Of a DNA stretch of 64,000 bases, positions 11,405-63,800 are shown piece after piece (position 1 is the stretch's first letter; each line of letters starts with the position of its first letter). The DNA lies in assembly GCF_000583655.1 (NCBI RefSeq), contig NZ_BAKI01000003.1, positions 62,001 through 126,000 of the forward strand, read 5' to 3'. The DNA is from Lentilactobacillus farraginis DSM 18382 = JCM 14108. Its GTDB lineage: Bacteria > Bacillota > Bacilli > Lactobacillales > Lactobacillaceae. The position numbers and the translations under genes are program-made. A model generated the notes under the pieces. The model ran no database searches. It had not been told where the DNA came from and was given only the letters and a program-made list of their open reading frames with translations.

Positions 11405-11584
11405 ATTTTGTCGTCGTTAGCGCCCCGCAGCTGACGATTTTCGCTGCGACAGTCCCAAGCCTCTTAAGCCTGGTCCCAGCGCGCCAAGGACTGCTTTCCC
11501 TGGTGCTTCGGCAACCGCCCCTTTCATCAGCTTCTTAGCTTAAGCAGAAACTCCACTGACTACTCTTGTTGGTTGCGACCTCTA
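11405..11584 (-). promoter_or_regulatory. Lysine riboswitch (L-box) aptamer
   Basis: The minus strand shows the conserved L-box blocks in order: AGAGGTCGCAAC, AGTAGTCAGTGGAG, GATGAAAGGGGCGGTTGCCG, AAGC, GGCTTGGGACTGTCGCAG and GGGGCGCTAACGA. These match the family's five-helix junction sequences. It is followed by an intrinsic terminator and then lysA, the usual arrangement for lysine-repressed transcription. Confidence 0.95.
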
Positions 11585-11601
11585 ATGATTATTTATTAAT
11601 C

Positions 11602-22521: not shown

Positions 22522-22529
22522 AAGGCTAC

Positions 22530-22730
22530 TTTGGAAGACCAAGTAGTGTCAGGACAGAGAAAGGGCGAGATGCTGAAACGCCTTTAAAGACACGAATCCT
22601 ACCTTCCGTTACGATTATGTCCCAATCAGACACGGATTTTCCCGTTACGAAATCAAAAAGTGTGAAGCGCTGCTTTGAATGAGAATGGTACCGCCCAATC
22701 GGGTGTCTCAATTCAAAGCAGCGTTTTTTG
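22530..22730 (+). promoter_or_regulatory. T-box leader of proBA, probable proline specifier
   Basis: The T-box sequence AATGGTACCGC lies at 22684-22694. A terminator with 13 bp arms CGCTGCTTTGAAT / ATTCAAAGCAGCG and T6 ends at 22729. In the stem I region, GTGTC pairs with GACAC and is followed by GAAU-CCU-A. CCU at 22598-22600 fits a proline specifier, matching the downstream genes. The alternative register UCC would read serine. Confidence 0.88.
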
Positions 22731-53434: not shown

Positions 53435-53493
53435 TCACTATTACAATTAGCATTTAATGATTCATTAAATCATTAGACATTGGAGGAATGCAT

Positions 53494-55521
53494 ATGAATA
53501 ACGACATTTTCGGTGACATTTTTGACGACCCGTTCTTTAAGCAGGAATTTCCTGAAATGACAGGTCAACGTCGAATGCGTCAACAACCCATTCAAGTACA
53601 AGAACGCAGACCTCAAAATAAAACGACATTATTAGATCAATACGGAACCGACCTAACCCAAATGGCCAAAGACGGTAAGCTTGATCCTGTTATCGGTCGG
53701 GATAAAGAAATCGAACAAATGGAAGAAGTTTTGAGCAGACGAACCAAGAACAACCCGGTTTTAATTGGCGAAGCGGCGTTGGCAAGACCGCGGTAGTCGA
53801 AGGGCTCGCCCAGAAAATCGTTGACGGCGATGTTTCCGAGAAGCTGCTTAACAAGCGGATTATTTCCGTTGACGTCGTCTCATTGGTTCAAGGAACCGGA
53901 ATCCGTGGTCAATTTGAAGAACGTATGAAGAAACTGATCGATGAAGTTTCGAAGAATAAGAATGTGATTCTCTTCATCGATGAAATTCATCAAATCATCG
54001 GTGCCGGCTCAACCGGTGAAGGTGACAAGATGGATGCCGGCAACATTTTAAAGCCAAAGTTGGCCCGTGGCGACTTTCAATTAATTGGTGCCACGACCAG
54101 CAACGAATACCGGGATATTGAAAAAGACCAGGCTCTGGCTCGTCGATTCCAGCCAATCATGGTTAACGAACCAAGCGAAGCCGACACCCTGACAATTATT
54201 AAGGGGTTAAAGCCGAAATACGAGAAATTCCATCACGTTCAATACACCGATGACGCCCTGAAAGCTGCTGTTTCCTTCAGTAACCGTTATATTCAAGACC
54301 GAATGAATCCGGACAAAGCAATTGATTTAATCGACCAAGCCGGTGCCAAGGTTGCAATGTTCATCGATTGCCAAAGATAAATCGAGTCTGGAACAGGAAG
54401 CTTCAAAGCTTGAAAAAGCCAAGAAAGCCGCTTCCGAAAACGAAGAATACGAGAAAGCCGCTGCTCTGCGTGACAAGCTTGATAAGATCAATGGCCAGAT
54501 CAAGTCAATTGATAACGGCACCAAGGTTTCAGTACCAAAAGTAACAGCCGATGTTATCAAAGACGTTGTTGAGCGAATTACGGGTGTCCCGGTTACCGAT
54601 GTTAATAAGAATCAGGTCAGCCAGCTCAATCGTTTGAACAGCAATCTCAAGAAAGAGGTTATCGGTCAAGATGCGGCAATTGACGCCATTTCTGCTGCTA
54701 TTAAGCGAAGCCGGGTTGGCTTTACAGAAGGCAACCGGCCAATCGGCAGTTTCCTGTTTGTTGGTCCGACCGGCGTTGGTAAGACCCAGACCGCCAAGGC
54801 ATTGGCCAAAGAACTCTTTGGAACGACCAAAGCGATGTTTCGTTATGACATGTCCGAGTATATGGACAAGATCAGCGCTTCCAAACTGATTGGTTCCGCA
54901 CCCGGCTACGTTGGCTATGAAGAAGGCGGCAAGCTAACCGAACAAGTTCGTCGTCATCCCTACAGCTTGATTTTGCTCGATGAAATCGAAAAGGCCCACC
55001 CGGACGTTTTGAACCTGCTGCTGCAAATTTTGGACGACGGCCGCTTATCTGATGCCCAAGGTCGAACAGTTGACTTCAGCAACACTGTGATTATTATGAC
55101 CAGTAACGCCGGGCAGGAACACGTTGATTCGCAAAAGAGTGTCATTGACAGGTTGAAACCATACTTCAAGCTTGAATTTTTGAATCGAATTGACGATATT
55201 ATTCAATTCAACTCATTAACCAAAGCTGATTTGCTTCAAATTCTCGATTTGATGCTTCATGATTTGGACAAGCTTGTCAACAAGTCCCGGGGCATTCACT
55301 TTACGGTTACCGACGCTGCCAAAAGTCAATTGGTTGAGATGGGTTACAGCAAGGAACTTGGCGCTCGTCCAATGCATCGGGTTATCACCAAGGAAATTAC
55401 CGACAAATTAACCAACAGCTTCCTGGCCCACCCGGAGGAAAAGGACTTTACGGTTAAAACAGAAAATAATCAAATTTCCGTTGTCCCTACCACCAGTAGC
55501 GAACCAGTCGCCAGTAAATAA
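53494..55521 (+). pseudogene. clpL: Hsp100/Clp ATPase (ClpL-like), two frameshifts as given
   Basis: About 676 residues with two AAA+ modules: [30 protein letters not shown], a broken Walker A1, [15 protein letters not shown]; then a middle region with a UVR-like EYEKAAALRDKLDKI; then Walker A2 GPTGVGKTQTAK and LILLDEIEKAHPDV. The short N-terminus lacks the zinc finger of ClpE and the repeats of ClpC, favouring ClpL. A base is missing near 53770 (GAAGC before GGCGTTGG; GCC GGC expected) and one T is extra near 54360 (ATGTTCATCG; repaired [11 protein letters not shown]). ATG at 53494 follows GGAGG. Confidence 0.86.
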
Positions 55522-55550: not shown

Positions 55551-55579
55551 TTGACAACTACCAATGATATTGGTATATT
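55551..55579 (+). promoter_or_regulatory. Promoter of the cold shock gene
   Basis: TTGACA, 17 bp, TATATT, about 137 bases before the start codon, leaving the long 5' UTR typical of csp genes. Confidence 0.8.
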
Positions 55580-55716
55580 ATAGTCAATGTGTTTCAGGAT
55601 TCGATTTTCAAAGGTAACTTGTTTTATAGTTTTATGAAATAACTTCCTTGGAATCAGTTCAACTAGATACATTAAAATTTAAACTGCGCAGAAAGCGCAA
55701 GGAGGTTTCATATATT

Positions 55717-55920
55717 ATGAAACAAGGTACTGTTAAATGGTTCAACGCTGATAAAGGTTATGGCTTCATTACTACTGACGATGGTGACGTATTTGTTCAC
55801 TTCTCAGCTATCAACAAAGACGGCTTCAAGTCATTAGACGAAGGCCAACACGTAACCCTTGACGTTGAAGACAGCGACCGTGGCCCACAAGCTGCCAACG
55901 TTACTGTTGTTGACGACTAA
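55717..55920 (+). CDS. Cold shock protein (CspA family)
   Basis: 67 residues, the standard size. RNP1 is KGYGFIT and RNP2 is VFVHFSAI, inside a five-stranded OB fold starting [13 protein letters not shown]. Binds single-stranded RNA/DNA as an RNA chaperone. ATG at 55717 has AAGGAGG upstream. Its own promoter, long leader and terminator make it monocistronic. A copy of its last 19 codons lies at 57903, between two hydrolase genes. Confidence 0.95.
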
Positions 55921-55937
55921 TTAAAAACTAATTTTTA

Positions 55938-55967
55938 AAGCCGACGAGTGATCGTCGGTTTTTTGTG
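55938..55967 (+). terminator. Terminator after csp
   Basis: CCGACGA / TCGTCGG followed by TTTTTT. Confidence 0.88.
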
Positions 55968-56104: not shown

Positions 56105-57813
56105 GTGAAAGCAAAGAATGCAGCTGCTCACAAAAGAAATATTTCAATAATAACTTGTTTGGTTGCTTTGGTATCAAGCTTCCTCCTGGTTGTCAACCAT
56201 ACATATGCTGACGCTGAATCACAAACAACCTGCACTCAAATACCATCTCAGTCAACGTCCTCACAACAAACACCCCCCTCTAGAGAATCATCTTCTACCA
56301 ACCACAATAATGACGAAGTCCCCTCACAAAATATCGCAATTACCACGGGTGGCAACTCTTCGAACGATCAAAACAGCGACCAGAGAATCTCTGTTCCGTC
56401 GAATCAATCATCTGTCAATGAAACAACTACCCATACACCATCAGATAATACCAACTCAACAAATCAAAGCAACCCATTGAGCAGCCCAGACGCCACAGCA
56501 AATAAAGTCCAGATTGCTCAACAAGACGTAGCAACTAGTCCATTAGCCCCCGATCAAAACCCGATTACTACTGATTTTTCAAAGAGCAATGACAACCAAG
56601 CAACCGATTCAAAAACTACTGTGGCTCAATCCGAAAGTGTCAGCAACATACCAACTAGTGGCGTTGATAAAGATCAAATGACCGTCACAGGTACCATTAA
56701 TTCGACTGATCCAACCATTAAACAATCAAGCTCTAATCCCCTATTCAAATGGCTGACAAACATGACAAGTGCCGGAACAGCCGCTTTAATTTACCCACTT
56801 TTAGCTTCCCGTCAAGGCGTCCGTTTCTTACTGGAATGTCGAAAAATATTCTTCCCTCGTTACACGATCGATCATACGTGGTCTAATTTAGATCAAAAAT
56901 ACAATCCGAAATATACAAAACAATTTTATACGAATGCCCAGCAATGGTACGACATCGGTGTTAAGAGAGAAAATTTGACGATCCCATTTGCGGACGGTAG
57001 TGGGAACGCTTCAGCGACTTACATTGCGCATCCAGGATCAACTAAAACTATTATTTACGGTCAGGGTTGGACAACCAGGCAGAATGGATGGGATATGTTT
57101 CAAAAATTTTCTATGATATGGGTTACAATATTTTAATGCCATATAGCCGCGGTCAGGGCAGTAGTGATGGCGAATTTGTTACATTTGCTTACAAAGATAA
57201 GCAAGATTGGATTAATTGGATTAATAAGGTTAACCAGATAAACGGCTCTGGCAGTGAAGTCATTCTCTATGGCCAGTCTATGGGAGCTGATGAGGCTTTA
57301 GAAGCCGCTGCGCAAAAGAATTTGCCATCATCTGTCAAAGCAGTTGTTGCTGACTGTGGTTACTCAACGCTTCCTTCACTTCTTTATTCACTTTATACAA
57401 GGGCTGCTAATAAATTAAATGACTTCACGGCCAAAATCGGCTGGAATCTAAATGGATCGATCCCATTGGCACCATATGATCAATTTTTGAAAAATCTCAA
57501 CAACATTAACTACTTGCTTCAAAGTTTCAATATTGATGATGCTTCGGGAATAACAGCCGTAAAGAATTTAGCGCTGCCCACATTATTTATTGCAACAGCT
57601 GATGATGACTTCATTCCAGATTCTGAAACCAAAGCTTTGTACAACGCCAGCATTTCCAAGAATAAGCAGCTATGGATTCTGGATGGGCGCGTGGGTGGTC
57701 ACGCCTCTGCCAATAATGCGGTGGTTGCCTATCAACAACATATTCAAAGCTTCCTTGATGCTTGCTGCAACGTTAAAAATAATTCAATTTCAAACCATAC
57801 TATTGCAGCCTAA
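56105..57813 (+). pseudogene. Secreted serine/threonine-rich alpha/beta hydrolase, copy 1, frameshifted as given
   Basis: About 570 residues after repair. Signal peptide (RNISIITCLVALVSSFLLVV then HTYADA), a 170-residue low-complexity S/T/N/Q linker, then a hydrolase domain: TIIYGQGWTT, GYNILMPYSRGQGSSDGEF, nucleophile GQSMGADEALEAA, acid TADDDFIPDSETK and histidine GRVGGHAS. The frame breaks near 57083: ACCAGGCAG lacks one base (ACC AAG GCA likely), compared with WTTEPEWMGY in copy 2. GTG start with AAAGGGG. Lipase/esterase or peptidase activity is possible; substrate unknown. Confidence 0.78.
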
Positions 57814-58125: not shown

Positions 58126-59880
58126 GTGAAAAAAAATCAATTAAGCATTTATCAACTATTTAGCCTGACAGTTGCAACATTAATCATCGGCTTATTTTGG
58201 GGTATTCAAAATACATATGCCGACACCGTTGCAACACCACAGCAATCCGTTTTCTTTAATGTATCGACTGATTCTAGTTCAGCTGAGCAAAGCACAGAAA
58301 CACCAACGCAACAAGCCACGGCCACAGTGTCTTCATCTTCATCTTCAGATTCAACTTCGTCAATTAATCAAAACGATCAGGGGCAATCTGCGTCAAATAA
58401 AACCATTGATGCTTCGTCAAAATCCGAAGCAACGACGCCGGCTGCCACACAAAAATCAGTTGTTGATGATCAAGCGGAGACACTATCATCCTCAACTGAT
58501 AGTAGCGTCACTGAAACAAATTCATCTCAATCAGTATCATCTGATTCAATCGTAAATAATCAGTCTTCCTCACAAGCGACAACCGCTTCTCAATTCTCTC
58601 AAAGCCAATCCAGTGCTGATTCTACAAGCGACGTTTCAACTGCCGACTCAAGTTCAGCTTCTGTAACCAGTTCAGCCGCTAAAAGTGATGGCCCCTCTGA
58701 TGAGACAGACAAAGATCAAATTACCGTTAGCGGGACTGCTGATTCATCCGATCCAACCATTAAACAATCCAGCAGCAATCCGCTACTTAACTGGTTAACA
58801 AATCTCACGAGTGCTGGGGCAGCCTCACTTATTTATCCGTTTGTGACATCCAGACAAGGTTCTCACCTCATTTCCCAATTTCGGACATTATTATCACCTA
58901 CCAGATATAATATTGATAAAACCTGGTCCGACTTGGATCAAAAATATGATCCCGATTACACAAAACAATTTTATACTGAAGCTAAGAACTGGTACGACAA
59001 CGAGGTAACCAAACAAACTTTAACGGTACCATTTGCCGATGGCTCTGGGAATGCTTCGGCAACCTATATCGCTCATCCCGGATCAACCAAAACGATCATC
59101 TATGGTCAGGGATGGACCACCGAACCGGAATGGATGGGCTACATTTCAAAAATCTTTTATGACATGGGCTACAACGTTTTAATGCCCTACACTCGGGGAC
59201 AAAATGGTAGTGATGGCGAGTTTATGACTTTTGGCTATAAAGACAAGGCTGATTGGACTAACTGGATTAACAAAGTTGACCAGATCAATGGTCCTGACAG
59301 TGAAGATATCCTCTATGGTCAATCCTTGGGAGCAGATGACGCGCTGGAAGCCGCTGCCCAAAAAAACTTGCCTTCTTCAGTCAAAGCCGTCATCGCAGAT
59401 TGTGGCTACTCAACGATTCCTTCACTTCTTTATTCACTTTACACAGGAGCCGCTAATAAGCTAAACGGTTATACGTCTAAAATCGGATGGAATCTTAATG
59501 GTTCGATTCCACTGGTTCCTTACGATCAATTTTTAAGCAACTTAAACAAGATTAACCATTTTGTTCAAGGCTTTAATTTAGATGACGCTTCAGGGTTAAC
59601 AGCTGTTAAGAATTCAACTCTGCCAACACTATTTATTGCAACAGCAGATGATACTTTTATTCCTGACTCAGAAACCAAAGCTTTGTATAACGCCAGCAAC
59701 TCCGAATATAAGCAATTATGGATCTTGGACGGAAATGTTGGTGGTCATGCTTCAGCCAATAATGCTGTTCTTGCCTATAAGCAACATATTCAGAATTTCC
59801 TTAATGCTGTTGAAAACGGTCAGACAACGCCGGCAAACACTGCTTCACCTGTTGTAAATACACAAAATGCTGCCGCATAA
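58126..59880 (+). CDS. Secreted serine-rich alpha/beta hydrolase, copy 2
   Basis: 584 residues, intact. Signal peptide (FSLTVATLIIGLFWGIQNTYA-D), then about 170 residues very rich in Ser/Thr/Gln/Ala, then the hydrolase domain from about residue 200: TIIYGQGWTTEPEWMGY, GQSLGADDALEAA (nucleophile elbow G-x-S-x-G), TADDTFIPDSETK (acid) and GNVGGHASANN (histidine). No LPXTG anchor, so probably released or wall-associated through the linker. GTG start with GAGGG. The catalytic domain is very similar to copy 1; the linker has diverged. Confidence 0.82.
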   Translation: MKKNQLSIYQLFSLTVATLIIGLFWGIQNTYADTVATPQQSVFFNVSTDSSSAEQSTETPTQQATATVSSSSSSDSTSSINQNDQGQSASNKTIDASSKSEATTPAATQKSVVDDQAETLSSSTDSSVTETNSSQSVSSDSIVNNQSSSQATTASQFSQSQSSADSTSDVSTADSSSASVTSSAAKSDGPSDETDKDQITVSGTADSSDPTIKQSSSNPLLNWLTNLTSAGAASLIYPFVTSRQGSHLISQFRTLLSPTRYNIDKTWSDLDQKYDPDYTKQFYTEAKNWYDNEVTKQTLTVPFADGSGNASATYIAHPGSTKTIIYGQGWTTEPEWMGYISKIFYDMGYNVLMPYTRGQNGSDGEFMTFGYKDKADWTNWINKVDQINGPDSEDILYGQSLGADDALEAAAQKNLPSSVKAVIADCGYSTIPSLLYSLYTGAANKLNGYTSKIGWNLNGSIPLVPYDQFLSNLNKINHFVQGFNLDDASGLTAVKNSTLPTLFIATADDTFIPDSETKALYNASNSEYKQLWILDGNVGGHASANNAVLAYKQHIQNFLNAVENGQTTPANTASPVVNTQNAAA

Positions 59881-60136: not shown

Positions 60137-61162
60137 TTATGATTTCGCTTGGGCCGATGACTGCTGAGCAGCATGTTTCTTATCCGATTCCAAGACTGAT
60201 TGGATATAACCGTCAACATCAAACGTGCCGGAAAATTCAGCTAAGTGAACCAGATTTCGCAAAAAGTCATGCGTCTTTGCTTCATAATGATACTTTAAGC
60301 CCAGTTCATAAATATAACCGTTAATATAATCAACTTCTGTTTGTCTGTTCTTTGAAATGTCCTGATACATGGACGGAAAATGAAGTGGATTGGAAACCCG
60401 GCTAACGTAGGAAACTGTCTCCCACTCTTCTTTACGGGTATTCAGCAGCGTAATCCCGGCTCGTTCACAAACGTCAAAAGCTTCGTTAATCAACTGTACG
60501 CCCAACTTTTTAGCCACCGGTGATTGAATATACTCGCCCATTCGAATTTTAAACATAGTACAAAGCGTATTGACAACCGAATTAAAGATAACCTTGGCCA
60601 TCAGTGTTCCAAGAAAGTTGGTAGTCAAATTAGGGTTCAAGCCAGCCTGGGTGAACTCATCGACAATCTGATGAGTCATTTGATCAGGCTTTTCAGTTTC
60701 ATTGGCAATATTCATTGAACCGGCTCCCTTAGCGCCGATAAAATCAACGTCGCCGGCCTTATTCAAAACCGTCCCAATCAAAGCCGTCCCACCAAGGACC
60801 CGATCTTCAGGAAAATATTGATTTAACTTTTCAATATGCCCCATGCCGTTCATACAGGTAACAACATATTGTTTATCATTAAAGAAATGAGCACTTCGCT
60901 TTAAGAAATCAGCTAGTTGGTACTGTTTGGTAAAGACAATCAGCACATCCGGATCACCTTTATATTCTTCAGGATAATAAATGTTTACCGGCACCAAATG
61001 TTTATTTTGTCCGTCACGGGAAACGTAAACCCCTTTTTGCTGCCGAATAGTGTCAACTTGTTGATCCCAAGTATCAACAAAGTCAACGTCAAACCCCGCT
61101 TCCTGAAGTAAAACGCCGTAACGTAGTCCCATAGCGCCTGCACCCAATACTGTATATTTCAT
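60137..61162 (-). CDS. PanE/ApbA family 2-oxoacid reductase (ketopantoate reductase-like)
   Basis: 341 residues: N-terminal Rossmann VLGAGAMGLRYGVLLQEAG, DVLIVFTKQYQLADFL, CMNGMGHIEKL with the conserved asparagine, and the C-terminal substrate domain with the catalytic lysine in GTLMAKVIFNSVVNTLC and NRQTEVDYINGYI. In lactic bacteria this family includes true ketopantoate reductases and D-2-hydroxyacid dehydrogenases acting on branched-chain or aromatic keto acids. A T-box with a Phe-type specifier upstream favours an amino-acid-linked role such as phenyllactate formation (inference). ATG with GGAAGATTGG. Confidence 0.8.
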   Translation of the reverse strand: MKYTVLGAGAMGLRYGVLLQEAGFDVDFVDTWDQQVDTIRQQKGVYVSRDGQNKHLVPVNIYYPEEYKGDPDVLIVFTKQYQLADFLKRSAHFFNDKQYVVTCMNGMGHIEKLNQYFPEDRVLGGTALIGTVLNKAGDVDFIGAKGAGSMNIANETEKPDQMTHQIVDEFTQAGLNPNLTTNFLGTLMAKVIFNSVVNTLCTMFKIRMGEYIQSPVAKKLGVQLINEAFDVCERAGITLLNTRKEEWETVSYVSRVSNPLHFPSMYQDISKNRQTEVDYINGYIYELGLKYHYEAKTHDFLRNLVHLAEFSGTFDVDGYIQSVLESDKKHAAQQSSAQAKS

Positions 61163-61221
61163 AGTCCAATCTTCCTTTCAATTAATCGCTAATATTTTCA
61201 ACTGCCAATCGAGTCTGGCCA

Positions 61222-61480
61222 AATAAAAAATCGCCCCTCTGTCACTACTGACAAAAGGACGACTTTCAGCCGCGGTACCACCTTCATAGATACACTATCT
61301 GCATCCACTCGTTGACATGCTTTAACGGACAAGTCCGAAACCAGCTTACCAGGTTAGCTCACCGATTTGATTAAAAAGCATGAAAGTCACCATTTGTGGT
61401 CTCAGAGTCATCTTCCAGCCGCTGAATGACTTCTCTAATAAACTGAATACCAACAAAAGCTTCTTTCAAATTGATACTTC
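61222..61480 (-). promoter_or_regulatory. T-box leader of the PanE-type gene, Phe specifier likely
   Basis: Minus strand: AGAGA of the specifier loop, AGTCA pairing with TGACT, then the loop GACU-UUC-A. UUC lies at 61384-61382; the neighbouring register UUU is also Phe. The T-box sequence GGTGGTACCGCGG is at 61282-61270. The terminator TCGTCCTTTTGTCA / TGACAGAGGGGCGA with T6 ends near 61225. Confidence 0.88.
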
Positions 61481-61482
61481 GA

Positions 61483-61511
61483 ATTATGAGTTTTAAATAA
61501 CAAAATGTCAA
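61483..61511 (-). promoter_or_regulatory. Promoter of the T-box leader
   Basis: Minus strand TTGACA, 17 bp, CATAAT. Confidence 0.8.

Positions 61512-62688: not shown

Positions 62689-63800
<1,112 letters not shown>

Follow-up and report, generated by a model that had tools for sequence, protein, structure and literature searches.

A probable valine-specific T-box leader ahead of a stand-alone PanE-family gene in Lentilactobacillus farraginis

The window analysed here is a stretch of 64,000 nucleotides (nt) from Lentilactobacillus farraginis DSM 18382 = JCM 14108 (contig NZ_BAKI01000003.1, positions 62,001 to 126,000), near the right end of which lies a gene of the PanE/ApbA family preceded by a T-box leader (Table 1). 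The presence of a T-box, a promoter-like site and a terminator ahead of this stand-alone gene is confirmed: the whole unit runs in the order promoter-like site, leader, terminator and PanE gene from 61511 to 60137 on the minus strand, the regulatory parts occupy 61511-61226, and no further gene follows on that strand, as the first-pass annotation had held in saying that promoter, T-box and terminator lead one gene only. The next long open reading frame, 58126-59880, has the opposite direction. The promoter-like site is weak when taken alone, given the number of such sites expected from shuffled sequence; TTGACA is visible by eye in the orthologous leaders as well. A smaller hairpin at 61273-61259, which was the sole hairpin from the pattern scan, is the antiterminator arm. 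The encoded protein matches the Pfam domains ApbA (2.4e-31) and ApbA_C (9.3e-28).

Table 1. Parts of the panE unit in window coordinates.
Feature	Coordinates	Strand	Basis
Promoter-like site TTGACA-17-CATAAT	61483..61511	-	Pattern scan, 11/12 matches; shuffles give 1.9 such sites
T-box leader RF00230	61252..61477	-	58.4 bits, E 3.4e-12
Helix below specifier loop, 5' strand UGAAAG	61463..61468	-	Alignment, covariation, stem I folds
Helix below specifier loop, 3' strand CUUUCA	61381..61386	-	Holds the UUC (61382-61384) of the first-pass annotation
Proposed specifier codon GUG (Val)	61388..61390	-	Loop above covarying helix; apical-helix distance; GUU in L051
UGGU bulge of the T-box sequence, pairing with tRNA 3' end, fits A73	61277..61280	-
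Intrinsic terminator hairpin and U-run	61226..61267	-	Fold, 19 bp
PanE/ApbA-family gene, 341 residues, predicted D-2-hydroxyacid dehydrogenase	60137..61162	-	Pfam, fold, sequence matches

The covariance-model match to RF00230 spans the whole model (1-219/219) at a score under the gathering score of 93, and a default Rfam scan of the window therefore comes out without this T-box; genome-wide, 49 T-box matches were obtained at E<=0.001, 12 of which exceed the gathering score. The leader is conserved. Close panE orthologues (>=80% identity) occur in 19 Lentilactobacillus genomes, the source genome counted, and the T-box motif GGTGGTACC stands upstream of panE in 17 of them; all ten orthologues scanned match RF00230 at E<=1e-6. 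The motif search across the 19 genomes did not find it at panE of L065 and L066, sister-lineage orthologues of 84% and 80% identity in which the switch has apparently been lost. The panE leader of the same-genus genome G019 is identical to that of the L. hilgardii record L090.

Which amino acid the leader senses depends on the specifier codon, for which stem I was compared across 17 orthologues (the window, L050-L064 and L067). RNAalifold pairs UGAAAG with CUUUCA in this alignment, with a pairing probability of 0.9-1.0 in the 14 closest orthologues. The pairs form in 97.0% of alignment cells, and their covariation is 0.186 against 0.064 in shuffled alignments, none of 500 being as high; these shuffles ignore the relatedness of the sequences, and a control in which the partner strand was slid along reaches at most 0.100. 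Two pairs change on both sides, one from A-U to U-G and G-C, the other from G-C to A-U and C-G. An alternative pairing on the same CUU strand, GAAG:CUUU (89.7% of cells, covariation 0.248 vs 0.127), leaves an identical loop. That loop carries GUG in 13 of the 14 closest orthologues and GUU in the remaining one (L051, reading GAAC-GUU, Val as well); the codon is mostly preceded by GAUU or GAUC, whereas the window has AAUG at this place and L052 has AGUG. In the window the loop above the helix reads GUG-A, so that a GUN codon stands in the specifier loop. Taken together, the comparison makes GUG (Val) a well supported specifier, situated in the loop above a covarying helix that itself contains UUC.

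The first-pass annotation had placed a Phe specifier at UUC, noted that the neighbouring register UUU is also Phe, and proposed that folding stem I would fix the codon. The rival explanation that follows from it is that the specifier is UUC, that the helix holding it opens upon tRNA binding, and that uncharged tRNA-Phe controls an aromatic keto-acid reductase. Folding stem I alone gives the opposite outcome: UGAAAG:CUUUCA is present in the free minimum-energy fold of 15 of the 17 orthologues including the window, with GUG in the loop and UUC paired (it lies 0.8 kcal/mol above the minimum in L063, and L064, with a different base helix, is not comparable). Both the UUC and the UUU registers fall inside CUUUCA. 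The helix required by a UUC specifier, AAGC:GCUU, is unsupported, being found in 85.3% of cells with a covariation of 0.164 against 0.156 shuffled; among the 13 sequences able to form all four pairs, forcing it raises the energy by between 2.3 kcal/mol (the window) and 10.7 kcal/mol. The UUU register was rejected: L051 and L067 have GUU at that place in the alignment, and L063 has CUU. A serine codon, UCA, sits in the same paired segment as UUC.

The position of the codon relative to the apical helix points the same way. As references we used 30 T-boxes, comprising 28 of the 49 of the genome plus L116 and L077; the codon of seven of them is fixed by the tRNA-synthetase gene that follows, the others being read by pattern or by gene, and the hisS, serS, thrS, ileS and alaS leaders, whose codons are not placeable by eye, were left out. 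The distance from apical helix to codon is 14-20 nt in 28 of the 30, and 14-19 nt in the seven synthetase leaders (leuS, pheS, valS, argS, tyrS, glyQ and trpS); the outlying references are proB, at 12 nt, and L029, at 46 nt, where the wrong hairpin was taken. In the eight orthologues measured, GUG or GUU lies 15-17 nt from the apical helix and UUC 21-23 nt. Neither UUC nor UUU thus lies in the specifier loop at the canonical distance, with the Rfam alignment of the window dissenting.

Several observations weigh against a valine specifier and some of them favour phenylalanine. The tRNA-Val genes seen in the stretches scanned all have the anticodon UAC. With it, GUG would pair by a U-G wobble and GUU would bring U against U, so the match to tRNA-Val is not Watson-Crick at the third position; GUA is the codon of the other Val T-boxes read in this analysis. 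UUC would be a perfect match to the tRNA-Phe(GAA) genes. The sequence UUCA is conserved in 16 of the 17 orthologues, and the UGGU bulge fits the A73 of tRNA-Phe, although tRNA-Val and tRNA-Phe sequences were both read as A73, by eye. Longer fragments give another minimum fold for the window than stem I alone, no clear codon is seen in L063, L064 and L067, and GUG lacks the preceding GANN in the window and L052, as a result of which a codon-calling script (see below) leaves the window uncalled and calls L052 UUC. Finally, the specifier columns of the Rfam alignment hold UUC in both the window and L056.

Two of these objections can be tempered. Imperfect third positions may occur in this genome, since a proB-like leader reads CCU where the tRNA-Pro anticodons seen are UGG and CGG. 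This leader is the second T-box of the window (22527-22711, plus strand, 50.5 bits), and its gene was assigned by eye. The Rfam alignment cannot decide the codon, because across the window and ten orthologues one and the same model yields UUC in the two just named, GUG in L053, GAC in L050, L054, L055, L057, L058 and L060, UUU in L051 and nothing in L052. The GAC placement, found in six of the ten, was dropped as a candidate in its own right, L051 having UUU there. Where the helix beneath the loop is unusual, aligning a single T-box to the Rfam model can thus shift the specifier by six bases, and it is the comparison of orthologues that settles the placement where a single alignment misleads. 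With UUC inside a covarying helix and too far from the apical helix, we consider control by tRNA-Phe quite improbable.

The T-boxes of other PanE genes supply a further comparison. The script, which looks for GANN followed by a codon at 13-20 nt, was applied to all PanE starts in L049-L128 (81, or 63 after deduplication). Within the clade of the window (17 starts) it returned GTG 11 times and GTT, TTC, TCT, CAT and GGG once each, the TTC being that of L052 at the far limit; since it can hardly return UUC in this clade, only its results outside the clade are independent of the distance test. Among the 46 starts outside, it called ATC 15 times, GTA 10 times, ATG three times, AGC once and a stop codon once, 13 having no T-box motif and three remaining uncalled. 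The Met call is doubtful for L075 and L092, where AUC three bases on fits equally. In most T-boxes of other PanE genes the codon is thus one for Ile (AUC), Val (GUA) or Met (AUG), which again argues against a Phe switch at this locus. On a tree of the PanE proteins (64 rows) the codon labels cluster, with 13 changes against 34.0 after shuffling and 0/200 as low; some of the labels were set by hand (L049 and L052 as GTG; L063, L064, L067 and both L099 genes as unclear; L075, L092 and L094 as 'I?'; L107 and the second L101 gene as GTA).

Some of the T-box-led PanE genes come as Ile/Val pairs or join genes for an aminotransferase or a methionine transporter. L100 and L101 each have two PanE genes, one with AUC and one with GUA (the second codon of L101 read by eye), and the PanE T-boxes of L122 are GUA and AUC. 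The source genome has paralogues of its own: the T-box of C121 (L005) reads GUA; that of C96 (L036) is followed by a class I/II aminotransferase gene; and C64 has a Met T-box, a permease, a cyclase-family protein and a PanE without N-terminus, then metQ-, metN- and metI-like genes (by eye). A Leu reading of the C96 T-box was dropped; a drawing by hand admits either AUU or GAU. Downstream of a PanE gene with an AUC leader in L119 (Limosilactobacillus frumenti) lies a 57% relative of the aminotransferase of C96.

For the enzyme itself, a 2-keto acid reductase/D-2-hydroxyacid dehydrogenase that depends on NADH is the probable assignment. The nearest solved sequences are 8wl3, 8wl1, 8wl4, 2ew2 and 3wfi; in a structure search with the predicted model (pLDDT 92.0) the best VIA match was 5x20_E (Z 40.5), 5x20 being a D-mandelate dehydrogenase with NADH and 8wl1 the D-mandelate dehydrogenase of Lactobacillus brevis. 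The protein has the D-mandelate dehydrogenase-type fold, one that is common to ketopantoate reductases, and the archaeal ketopantoate reductase 5ayv_B is tied with 5x20_E (Z 39.6), which counts against the assignment; because of this tie the fold alone does not choose the enzyme. NADH is favoured by an acidic residue closing the second strand, and Asp or Glu occupies this position in all 17 aligned proteins. K190, N194, N198, S264 and E276 are invariant in the same 17; we take these to be the catalytic and substrate residues of E. coli ketopantoate reductase. A passage in PMC6303947 cites Wada 2008 for a family comprising D-mandelate dehydrogenases and ketopantoate reductases, and one in PMC7583248, which cites Chambellon 2009, describes the use of PanE to assay D-2-hydroxyisovalerate and D-2-hydroxyisocaproate.

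A true ketopantoate reductase serving pantothenate synthesis, linked to valine through 2-ketoisovalerate as the pantoate precursor, would suit the family name, the tied archaeal structure and a valine switch alike. We nevertheless regard it as highly improbable: panB and panC were not found in the source genome (94% complete), nor was panB found in any of the 26 relatives whose PanE match is strong, and PanE relatives stand under Ile and Met T-boxes. The PanE-family enzyme at this locus is thus predicted, from gene content, to be probably not making pantoate. The first-pass annotation had suggested a keto-acid enzyme making phenyllactate-type acids, not pantoate, under the control of uncharged tRNA-Phe. 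The non-pantoate part is borne out by the missing panB and panC and by nearest solved relatives that include D-mandelate dehydrogenases; the phenyllactate part loses its basis with the Phe specifier, the codon in the loop being that of Val.

We propose, with a probability of roughly 0.7, that a Val T-box terminating transcription controls a lone PanE-family D-2-hydroxyacid dehydrogenase gene for branched-chain 2-keto/2-hydroxy acids. The leader, T-box, terminator, gene, conservation in the genus and codon geometry are established at the level of sequence. Uncharged tRNA-Val would bind the specifier loop and the UGGU bulge, whereupon the antiterminator would form and panE be transcribed under valine shortage. 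The enzyme would interconvert branched-chain 2-keto acids (2-ketoisovalerate and similar) and D-2-hydroxy acids; under shortage its direction may be toward the keto acid, from which aminotransferases would then make the amino acid, the hydroxy acids being scavenged. Running toward the keto acid is the weakest step of the proposal. A serious rival keeps the Val T-box and has the enzyme merely reduce branched-chain keto acids, for redox balance or keto-acid disposal, with no salvage. We judge it unlikely: a T-box acts when its amino acid is short, and draining the corresponding keto acid would then be costly, while the operons of relatives include aminotransferase or methionine uptake genes. Salvage of hydroxy acids is therefore favoured, T-boxes acting in shortage and the relatives' operons holding genes for uptake and transamination.

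The genomic setting of panE concerns valine as well. Its neighbours are an ABC ATPase gene, ilvC and an ilvB-like gene, and divergent from these lie a gene for a 242-residue protein with a GUA T-box and ilvA-like and ilvD-like genes. The ilvC gene (62689-63719, minus strand) consists of two overlapping frames, and the open frames of both ilvD copies are short, with 408 and 448 codons against 566-636 in relatives (L172:12822-14045); the split ilvC and short ilvD frames point either to a valine pathway in decay or to errors of assembly. Of the 19 genomes that carry a close orthologue of panE, five have ilvD, always on the panE contig at a distance of about 8-18 kb, and it was not found in the other 14, two of which are less than 90% complete, so that de novo valine synthesis is probably beyond most panE carriers; the T-box switch is kept by most carriers despite the missing ilvD. 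With the proteins of the source genome as queries, ilv genes were not found beside panE within the 1.5-3 kb flanks of the relatives' loci.

A wider reading is possible and put forward only tentatively: that PanE-family D-2-hydroxyacid dehydrogenase paralogues of the Lactobacillaceae each answer, through a T-box of their own, to a single amino acid (Val, Ile or Met), at times in tandem Ile/Val pairs or alongside an aminotransferase or methionine transporter gene, that auxotrophs rebuild amino acids from scavenged 2-hydroxy acids, and that the codon predicts the substrate. If this is true, the leader codon would make a testable prediction of the substrate for enzymes that usually go by the name 'ketopantoate reductase', and lactic acid bacteria would treat 2-hydroxy acids as amino-acid reserves.

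Other T-boxes and genes were noted along the way. An Ldh_2-family (malate/L-lactate dehydrogenase) gene follows a T-box with GAAA-AUG-A (Met) in L028:1501-2947, so that a further enzyme of hydroxy acids stands behind an amino-acid T-box. GUA (Val) T-boxes precede genes for a 248-residue protein (L003:1501-2566), which matches PEP_mutase, and for the 242-residue protein beside ilvA (L172:10267-10995), which has no Pfam match at 1e-5. L017 has two T-box motifs, with 116 bases between, upstream of one transporter-like gene, and L116:2212-2911 has back-to-back T-boxes on opposite strands. In the window there are further a lysine riboswitch (11410-11592, minus strand, 90.1 bits); a Clp-type ATPase-like gene in three frames (53488-55521, plus strand, family by eye); an Rfam cspA thermoregulator match (55556-55966, plus strand) that covers the coding part of a cold-shock-like gene and may only reflect that gene; and a tandem pair of serine-rich, probably secreted, hydrolase-like genes (by eye), the first split (56105-57813, plus strand) and the second, the open reading frame at 58126-59880, whole.

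The T-box mechanism is known, and it is the enzyme under its control that is unexpected. Full-text literature searches, outside which lie the T-box gene lists in the supplements of Wels 2008 and Sun 2013, did not find T-box control of the PanE/D-mandelate dehydrogenase family; in the passages of PMC11651100 and PMC5409546 that mention them, a T-box and a PanE gene occur in unrelated places. Compared with the transcription-attenuating T-boxes of RF00230, the panE leader is alike in the AGAGA bulge of stem I, the apical loop, the UGGU bulge and the competing terminator; it differs in scoring below the gathering threshold, in a specifier loop without the AGUA motif that most T-boxes of the same genome have, and in a codon, GUG, that needs wobble pairing with the tRNA-Val encoded by the genes found. 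With ketopantoate reductase (PanE/ApbA) the enzyme has its Pfam domains in common, unlike that pathway in the absence of detectable panB or panC from the source genome, and with D-mandelate dehydrogenase and the PanE-type D-2-hydroxyacid dehydrogenases (3wfi, 3wfj, 5x20 and 8wl1) it shares the same fold at about 30% identity.
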